Made by a program: the position numbers and the translations under genes
Shown here: positions 31,317 to 33,483 of the stretch, in pieces
How positions within the stretch are numbered: the stretch's first letter is position 1
Layout of the letters: each line of letters opens with the position of its first letter
The notes under the pieces: generated by a model
Database searches by the model: none
What the model saw: only the letters and a program-made list of their open reading frames with translations
Told to the model about the DNA's origin: nothing
Assembly: GCF_000158955.1 (NCBI RefSeq)
Contig: NZ_GG657757.1
Span: 2,581,465 to 2,645,464 of the forward strand
Length of the DNA: 64,000 nt
From: Streptomyces viridochromogenes DSM 40736
GTDB taxonomy: Bacteria; Actinomycetota; Actinomycetes; Streptomycetales; Streptomycetaceae
Reading direction: 5' to 3'

Positions 31317-31543
31317 CGTAGACAAGCCCTTCGGCGGGCTCGGACGCACATGCCGGAACGCCCTCACAAAGTGAAATCAGTGCCCTTCAAGCCGGAATGA
31401 CTACTTCACCTACGGCGCCGGCATTCACCCACGTCACATGACACGCGCAACATGCGCCCAACATCGCCAGTTACCCCCGGTCCACCACCGACAACCTGAT
31501 GCACTTCGACCTGCACAACAATCATTCCCAGGGGGGGAACCGC

Positions 31544-31714
31544 ATGTCCGACAACGCGCAACTCGCGCAAACCGGCCTCGGCACCGTCGTCATCGGCGGC
31601 ACCGCCTACTACGTCGGCGGATGGATGATCGCCGCCGCAGCAGCAGCGGTCATCGCCGGCGTAGTACTGATCCGCTTCGGCTTCCGCCGTGGACGCAGCG
31701 TGGGCGACGAGTGA
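31544..31714 (+). CDS. 56-residue LAQTG mini membrane protein
   Basis: The product begins MSDNAQLAQTGLGTVVIGG, continues as one long hydrophobic segment (about 12-43) and ends in an RRGRS basic tail. LAQTG plus helix plus basic tail is exactly a class E sortase sorting signal (LAxTG), but with almost nothing in front of it. A GGGGGGG ribosome site precedes the ATG. Its stop overlaps the GTG of the GT2 gene by four bases (GTGA), so the two are translationally coupled. Confidence 0.75.
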   Translation: MSDNAQLAQTGLGTVVIGGTAYYVGGWMIAAAAAAVIAGVVLIRFGFRRGRSVGDE

Positions 31715-33204
31715 GCGCAAAGCGCCGCCGGATGCCGGTGCTGGCCGCCCGCCAGCACCGCTCCGGCACCATCCTCATGGGTATCGTCGTCCTCGCCATG
31801 GCCACCGCGTGGACCGCACACCACGCCCTGACCGCCGCCGCCTTCGACAGCCACACCGCCAGTCGGCTGTCACTCGTATGGCTGGCGCTGTTCCTCGTGT
31901 TCATGATGCAGACGCTCATGTACCACCTCGAGCGGCCCCGCAAGCTCACACCCCGATTGCTGCGCCAACTCGACGAGCTCCACGTCTCCATCCTCGTCCC
32001 CGTCTACAACGAGGATCCCGGCTACCTCAGACTCGGCCTCGAGTCGTTCCTCCGGCAGACCCGGCGTCCCGACAGCGTCCACATCGTTGACGACGGCTCC
32101 ACCAGCAGCGACTACGCCGAGGTACGGGCCTGGTGGGAGCAGGCAGCCCGGCAGGCCGGTGTCGCCGGCACCTGGCAGCGCGTCCCCAACGGGGGCAAGC
32201 GCCACGCCCAGGCGCACGGCGTCGGCGTCAGCCCGGACGCGGACATCTACATCACCTGCGACTCCGACTCCTGCTTCGCGCCGAACGCCGTCGCGGAGAT
32301 CATCGCCCCGTTCGCGCGGCCGCGTGTGCAGTCCGTGGCAGGGATCGTCATCGCTACGAACAACCGCGCCAACCTCCTCGCCCGGATCACCGACCTGTGG
32401 TTCACCACGAGCCAACTCGTGGATCGCTCCGGGCAGTCGGCCGTCGGTGCCGTCACAGTGAACTCCGGGCCACTCGCCGCGTACCGGGCCGAGGTCGTCC
32501 GCGACAATCTCGGCTCGTACCTCAACGAGCGATTCCTCGGCAGACCCGTGATGTTCTCCGACGACAGCCTGCTGACCTTGTACGCGCAAGAGCGCGGCCT
32601 GACCGTCCAGCAGCCCTCCGCCGTCGTGTTCACCGCCATGCCGGAGAAATGGAGCCACTTCACGCGCATGTATCTGCGGTGGATGCGCGGCTCGACGATC
32701 CGCTCCGTGTGGCGGATGAAGTACCTGTCTCCCGCTCGGCCGGCGTTCTGGTTGCACTTGATGCGTTGGTTCCAGGTGTTCCTCGTGCAGATGGTCACGG
32801 CGTGGCTCCTGCTGGTGGAACCGATCGCGTTCGACAACCTGCCTCCGACGAGCATGCTGTGGGTGCCGTTCCTGATCGGCTGGGCACAGGGGCTGCGCTA
32901 CCTCGGCGTGATCCGCAGCGACGAGCGGATCCGCTCGCGCGCGGTGACGTGGCTGATGATGCCCCTGGCGATCATCCTGGCGTGGACGGCGCTGCGCTGG
33001 CTGCGTTGGTACGGCATGGCCACATGTGCCCGCACCGGCTGGGGCACCCGGCAGAACGGCGCTGAGGTCTCCCTCAGTGCCGGCCCCACGTCTGTGCCTC
33101 CTGTGGGTGCTGTGCCCGCTCAGCGTTCCAGCCCCACGCCGGTGGTCAAGCTCCTCGATCCCGAGAGCGAGCAGACGCTGGAGATCGCACTGCCGAGGCG
33201 GTAG
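31711..33204 (+). CDS. Hyaluronan-synthase-like GT2 glycosyltransferase
   Basis: The 497-residue processive-type GT2 has N-terminal helices (about 20-75), then the GT-A domain: ILVPVYNEDPGYL, IVDDGST, the DSDS metal site, and an acceptor motif FLGRPVMFSDDS followed by YLRWMRGSTIRS in place of QxxRW. Four or so C-terminal helices follow (about 345-440). The plan fits type I hyaluronan or chitin-like synthases that make and extrude a polymer. The sugar is unknown. It is coupled to the LAQTG mini-protein. Confidence 0.83.
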   Translation: MSAKRRRMPVLAARQHRSGTILMGIVVLAMATAWTAHHALTAAAFDSHTASRLSLVWLALFLVFMMQTLMYHLERPRKLTPRLLRQLDELHVSILVPVYNEDPGYLRLGLESFLRQTRRPDSVHIVDDGSTSSDYAEVRAWWEQAARQAGVAGTWQRVPNGGKRHAQAHGVGVSPDADIYITCDSDSCFAPNAVAEIIAPFARPRVQSVAGIVIATNNRANLLARITDLWFTTSQLVDRSGQSAVGAVTVNSGPLAAYRAEVVRDNLGSYLNERFLGRPVMFSDDSLLTLYAQERGLTVQQPSAVVFTAMPEKWSHFTRMYLRWMRGSTIRSVWRMKYLSPARPAFWLHLMRWFQVFLVQMVTAWLLLVEPIAFDNLPPTSMLWVPFLIGWAQGLRYLGVIRSDERIRSRAVTWLMMPLAIILAWTALRWLRWYGMATCARTGWGTRQNGAEVSLSAGPTSVPPVGAVPAQRSSPTPVVKLLDPESEQTLEIALPRR

Positions 33205-33392: not shown

Positions 33393-33411
33393 GACCTGCT
33401 ACGCAGTACCG

Positions 33412-33483
<72 letters not shown>

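Follow-up and report, generated by a model that had tools for sequence, protein, structure and literature searches.

Sortases attach proteins, and to our knowledge it is often unexplained how the polysaccharides made by synthases are held on the Gram-positive surface. Two-part synthases such as PgaC/PgaD and BcsA/BcsB combine a processive GT2 glycosyltransferase with a membrane partner; compared by description, the pair reported here is built alike, but its partner consists of a single helix that bears a sortase motif. Known class I hyaluronan synthases (HAS), in contrast, are single proteins. The class E sortases of Streptomyces recognize LAXTG and act in aerial growth (PMC5148588). Their substrates, e.g., the chaplins ChpA-C, have LAXTG, a hydrophobic segment, and a basic tail (PMC5148588), as do the small proteins described below, but known class E substrates bring a signal peptide and a secreted domain, whereas these proteins have 4 to 21 residues before the motif and are tied to a glycosyltransferase. 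In exosortase/PEP-CTERM systems, sorting signals are linked with polysaccharide genes (PMC1569441), the targets generally having signal peptides.

Each part of the system has precedents: sortase signals and HAS-like synthases are established, and curated models exist for a small LAXTG protein and for exosortase-associated GT2s. The writer of an earlier note on this DNA knew of no described system of this form. For the pairing of a LAxTG mini-protein with a GT2 this stands, since we found no describing paper in the open-licence PMC literature; the components have not gone entirely unremarked, as NCBIfam already holds a small-LAXTG model and a model for an XrtP-associated GT2.

The mini-protein and its GT2 partner

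The pair lies in a 64-kb window, by which we mean the whole stretch of DNA that was analyzed. Its features are as follows.

31530..31537, plus strand: likely ribosome-binding site of the mini-protein, purine-rich AGGGGGGG (read from the letters only)
31544..31714, plus strand: mini-protein gene, 56 amino acids plus stop, MSDNAQLAQTGLGTVVIGGTAYYVGGWMIAAAAAAVIAGVVLIRFGFRRGRSVGDE (ORF reading; homologues; nonsynonymous divergence, pN, below synonymous divergence, pS)
31562..31576, plus strand: LAQTG motif, residues 7-11, a predicted outward-facing class E sortase signal (sequence; class E specificity from PMC5148588)
31628..31684, plus strand: predicted transmembrane helix, residues 29-47 (hydropathy; a homologue's model, at low confidence)
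31685..31696, plus strand: basic tail RRGR (R48-R49-G50-R51), predicted cytoplasmic (sequence; C-terminal charge distribution)
31711..31714, plus strand: GTGA overlap of the mini-protein stop and the GT2 start (sequence)
31711..33204, plus strand: HAS/NodC-like processive GT2 synthase, 497 amino acids (sequence and motifs; fold of homologues)

The mini-protein ORF runs from the ATG at 31544 to the TGA at 31712-31714, and the GTG at 31711 that starts the GT2 has its GTGA letters in common with that stop. An in-frame ATG upstream (31499) would lengthen the protein to 71 amino acids, but relatives become similar only from 31544, with MSDN[AG]Q.... By hydropathy there is a single hydrophobic stretch, whose top 19-residue window begins at residue 29. 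Coordinates and sequence agree with the earlier note on the 56-residue ORF, its LAQTG at residues 7-11, its helix, its RRGR, and its GTGA overlap with the GT2. A tRNA-Val gene (tac; 33411-33483 of the window, minus strand) follows the pair at a distance of about 200 bp and is a possible integration site.

The mini-protein has the anatomy of a sorting signal, i.e., a pentapeptide, then a hydrophobic segment, then a basic tail. It lacks a signal peptide and an exported domain, for which the stretch ahead of the motif in this family is too short. The LPXTG_anchor model TIGR01167 (cut-off 15.9 bits) did not report the window protein at E<=1, and the nearest relative tested scored 7.8 bits.

Pfam assigns the larger protein to GT2, and the conserved motifs VDDGS, GKR, DSD, DD, RW, and WGTR are present. 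Its top NCBIfam match is NodC (TIGR04242) at 111.2 bits, far below the 550-bit equivalog cut-off, so it is not classed as NodC; among solved structures, hyaluronan synthases are closest in sequence, at about 20% identity. AlphaFold models of the homologues L137 and L148 find their best fold matches in the Chlorella virus and Xenopus HAS (HAS1), with Z 31 over 372 residues at 2.6 A. The processive GT2 motifs and the HAS fold that mark class I HAS are thus both found, the fold on these two homologues, and the hyaluronan-synthase-like reading of the earlier note is borne out by sequence, motifs, and homologues' fold together. The modeled chains are those of homologues with the mini-protein helix in the chain, L137 being a natural fusion and L148 a read-through of two genes joined artificially. 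We do not take these single-chain models as proof of contact between helix and GT2, as the confidence of the helix is too low (pLDDT about 50-68). A paralogue in the same genome (L017, C1:6886404-6887663) is a HAS-like GT2 that adjoins a sugar dehydrogenase and has no mini-protein.

Conservation of the pair and its motif

With the mini-protein as sole query, 13 matches were obtained in 395 same-family genomes. In all 13 the gene directly downstream, on the same strand, is homologous to the window GT2 (40-100% identity), and all 13 keep [LI]AxTG; the motif's A, T, and G make up the only invariant columns of this first alignment. Searching by the GT2 brought up further, divergent pairs whose mini-proteins are very different yet still contain LAxTG. 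A phylum-wide sample contains the pair only rarely beyond a few families, and a phylum-wide profile search with the mini-protein returned 2 true matches and otherwise weak ones only.

Scanning 84,980 species genomes with a GT2 alignment yielded the named collection of 80 loci, from Streptomyces, Kitasatospora, Nocardiopsis, Streptomonospora, Actinomadura, Micromonospora, Actinomycetospora, Actinoalloteichus, Agromyces, Subtercola, Cellulomonas, Luteimicrobium, and some metagenome bins. We defined a mini-protein by L/I/V/M, A/P, any residue, T, G, then a hydrophobic stretch and a basic tail, with a start codon within 32 residues. Such an ORF lies 5' of 65 of the 80 GT2 genes, compared with 3/425 (0.7%) other genes of the same loci; T and G are demanded by the rule in this count, while the 13 family matches came by similarity alone, and at 2 of the 80 loci a contig end leaves the presence of a mini-protein not judgeable. 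L138 is probably a 66th such locus, with LAATG in an apparently shifted frame (a frameshift is probable). At L066, two genes intervene between an LPLTG mini-protein and the GT2; they resemble IS21 istA/istB, suggestive of an IS21-type insertion. At four other loci (L050, L113, L115, and L117) the pair sits amid small ORFs that recur between loci in the manner of mobile elements, and the genes they have in common include, by eye, a WhiB-like protein.

The mini-protein and the GT2 are a conserved genetic unit. The earlier note had named two results that would speak against its reading, a LAQTG not conserved in orthologues and a pair rarely adjacent elsewhere, and neither was observed, given the motif in 13/13 family matches and the adjacency in 13/13 by mini-protein search and at 65/80 GT2 relatives.

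How does the motif vary? Its x position changes freely while L, A, T, and G hold. Position 2 is A in 52/53 non-redundant mini-proteins and P in 1/53, the exchange for P occurring in Micromonospora and G395. Free x with L, A/P, T, and G held is, as far as sequence can tell, the substitution pattern of a sortase motif. The N-terminal tail before the motif has no K or R in 48 of the 53, and most C-terminal tails carry +2 to +6. Under the positive-inside rule, a positively charged tail stays on the inner side, so the N terminus is predicted to face out and the C terminus in. In two of the three groups compared, the N-terminal tail is as conserved as the helix (0.59 vs 0.55 and 0.58 vs 0.39), which argues that the peptide itself matters.

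Helix without motif, and motif beside other synthases

Eight loci (L126, L131, L132, L134, L135, L165, L169, and L170) have, in the place of the mini-protein, a short ORF with helix and basic tail and no LAxTG; that of L135 reads MTYLSQLWPVLIAVVLVSAVALLIRMFWRRGKGVSDT. The GT2 proteins of L130 (Actinomyces) and L137 (a Saccharibacteria bin) carry helix and basic tail as an N-terminal fusion, and in L175 helix and tail form the C terminus of an upstream PMT-like protein; at L133 no such helix was found. A maximum-likelihood tree built from 85 GT2 proteins scatters the helix-only and fused forms over several separate positions among LAxTG lineages. Retention of the helix without the motif, together with fusion, indicates that the helix is probably a core subunit of the synthase, and LAxTG, judged from these sequences, is probably an added outward sortase signal that was lost several times. 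The suggestion in the earlier note of a membrane subunit gains support here, since helix and tail persist in lineages that have lost LAxTG and, in one clade, are part of the GT2 chain. The fusion common to Actinomyces bowdenii (L130) and the Saccharibacteria bin suggests gene transfer; Saccharibacteria often live on Actinomyces.

It is tempting to blame the loss of LAxTG on a missing sortase, but sortases are present in 34/34 carriers tested, including all motif-less hosts. Sortase presence therefore does not discriminate between them. The genome of the window has 9 sortase genes (counted without class E assignment), 3 of them clustered at 4.448-4.451 Mb, and no sortase was seen as a conserved neighbor of the pair in HAS-type loci.

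Neighboring genes were considered as further parts and rejected, as none is conserved save nucleotide-sugar dehydrogenases, with GH26-like or deacetylase genes in some types. The dehydrogenase, the sole frequent neighbor, lies within about 5 kb in 21/80 loci, and one tested copy is of the UDP-glucose 6-dehydrogenase type; a uronic-acid polymer is plausible at dehydrogenase-bearing loci. The window pair itself has no sugar dehydrogenase next to it. GH26-like genes adjoin three deep relatives, and the row at L126 consists of a PMT-like membrane protein, a helix-only mini-protein, the GT2, a GH26-like protein, and a sugar dehydrogenase.

Small LAxTG proteins also occur beside other kinds of GT2. 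NCBIfam release 20 contains NF058583, LAXTG_small_WW, of 54 positions and with a cut-off of 65 bits. The HAS-type mini-proteins tested reach 22 bits at best, below that cut-off, and the window protein is not listed; mini-proteins beside other GT2 types, likewise small LAXTG proteins, score 22-38 bits. Probing 200 genomes with this model revealed more leaderless LAxTG proteins, of 50-57 residues, and at 12 of the 13 loci examined a same-strand GT2 lies no more than about 1 kb away, which is not a blind rate, 4 of the 13 having been picked after a weak GT2 match. With the three arrangements seen there, in addition to that of the window, mini-proteins stand at no fewer than four (at least 4) distinct GT2 types. 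The first arrangement is a sugar dehydrogenase, a mini-protein, and a HAS/NodC-like GT2 27% identical to the window GT2, found at L219, at L221, and in the genome of the window itself (L218; mini-protein of 57 amino acids, C1:4,681,907-4,682,068, minus strand). The second, at L222, is a UDP-GlcNAc 2-epimerase, a mini-protein, an XrtP-like exosortase, and an XrtP-associated GT2 (NF053846, 637 bits; cut-off 520); L223 is arranged alike, the family scans having covered the L222 proteins only, and L216 has a similar mini-protein in a related chromosomal position, where that GT2 is missing. The third, at L211-L215, L217, and L220, is a PgaC-like GT2 followed directly by the LAxTG mini-protein, with a polysaccharide deacetylase next in several loci.

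L222 thus unites a LAxTG mini-protein, an XrtP-like exosortase, and an NF053846 GT2, which resembles exosortase systems, whereas at the window locus no exosortase is encoded and the GT2 falls outside NF053846. Compared with the GT2s of the other types, a paralogue of its own genome that lacks a mini-protein is closer to the window GT2 (33%), which means that the tag joined, or was lost from, several synthase lineages.

Possible roles of the mini-protein

What, then, could a near-pure sorting signal do for a synthase? The reading we prefer, to which we give an even chance, is that the mini-protein is a synthase-helix subunit with an outward LAxTG on which a class E sortase acts, tying the synthase to the wall. 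The two genes would encode a two-part polysaccharide synthase. Its large part, the membrane GT2 of HAS/NodC type, would polymerize and export a polysaccharide, possibly one containing uronic acid; its small part would be a single-pass subunit, N terminus out and basic C terminus in, with a helix that associates with the large part. LAxTG would be cut between T and G by a housekeeping class E sortase, which would pass the 10-residue N-terminal peptide to a peptidoglycan precursor while the helix stays with the synthase, and the synthase, its timing, or its product would become tied to the growing cell wall. Here we infer the topology, the contact of helix and synthase, the sortase cleavage, and its purpose. 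Several observations speak against this reading: the mini-proteins have no signal peptide and so few residues before the motif, unlike textbook substrates; cleavage would free a short peptide only; the helix is poorly placed in the AlphaFold models; motif-less hosts have sortases too; and in the window no dehydrogenase stands next to the pair. In addition, the presence of similar mini-proteins at distant GT2 types may point to the sortase tag, and not to a synthase-specific helix, as what they have in common functionally. The corresponding broader proposal, that each of several processive GT2s has its own LAxTG micro-protein through which a sortase or exosortase attaches synthase or glycan to the wall, we regard as rather unlikely.

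A regulatory role is unlikely. Sortase cutting of the mini-protein would switch the synthase on or off, or recruit it to places where the wall grows, confining polymer synthesis to sites of SrtE activity, and the released peptide itself would, with the same low probability, have no further role. The same anatomy serves this reading, class E sortases do act in Streptomyces aerial growth (PMC5148588), and repeated loss of the motif with the helix kept fits a dispensable regulatory tag. However, the N-terminal tail is conserved in two clades beyond the need of a release site.

The earlier note had also raised the possibility that the mini-protein anchors the polymer on the cell wall. We think it improbable that the mini-protein is such an anchor, a disposable one, its N-terminal peptide being joined to the polysaccharide and a sortase linking both to peptidoglycan. 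A general anchoring role would fit the recurrence of mini-proteins at at least four GT2 types, as well as an N-terminal tail at least as conserved as the helix in two clades. A Tyr or Ser in that tail was considered as a glycan primer and rejected, such a residue not being universal: Tyr is among the first six residues in 22/53 HAS-type mini-proteins, and in L128 (MNGGQLAKTG) none of the residues ahead of the motif is S, T, Y, or K. The lack of a universal attachment residue speaks against a simple glycan primer, an enzyme joining glycan and peptide was not found at most loci, and the helix-only and fused forms would be anchorless.

Even less likely is a purely structural subunit in which LAxTG is an extracellular helix cap and no sortase is involved. 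The helix does appear to suffice in lineages with helix-only or fused forms, but a free x, a mostly fixed L, and exchange of A for P only, across several GT2 types, are the pattern of a sortase motif. Finally, that the mini-protein, short and alanine-rich as it is, could be a spurious or overlapping-frame ORF or a chance motif in GC-rich DNA can be practically dismissed, since pN is below pS in 104/104 mini-protein pairs compared, which marks a protein under selection, and since position and motif are conserved and the control genes stand at 0.7%.

Altogether, the pairing suggests an undescribed way of connecting sugar-polymer synthesis with the cell wall. A near-pure sorting signal tied to several kinds of synthase makes the link between sortases and polysaccharides directly testable. 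If the subunit-and-sortase reading is true, the range of sortase substrates would come to include short N-out peptides that lack a leader, and a small subunit of the synthase, mostly overlooked by gene finders and family models, would have come to light. If the broader proposal of a module shared by several processive GT2s is true, there would be a sortase-dependent anchoring route for a glycan and not for a protein.
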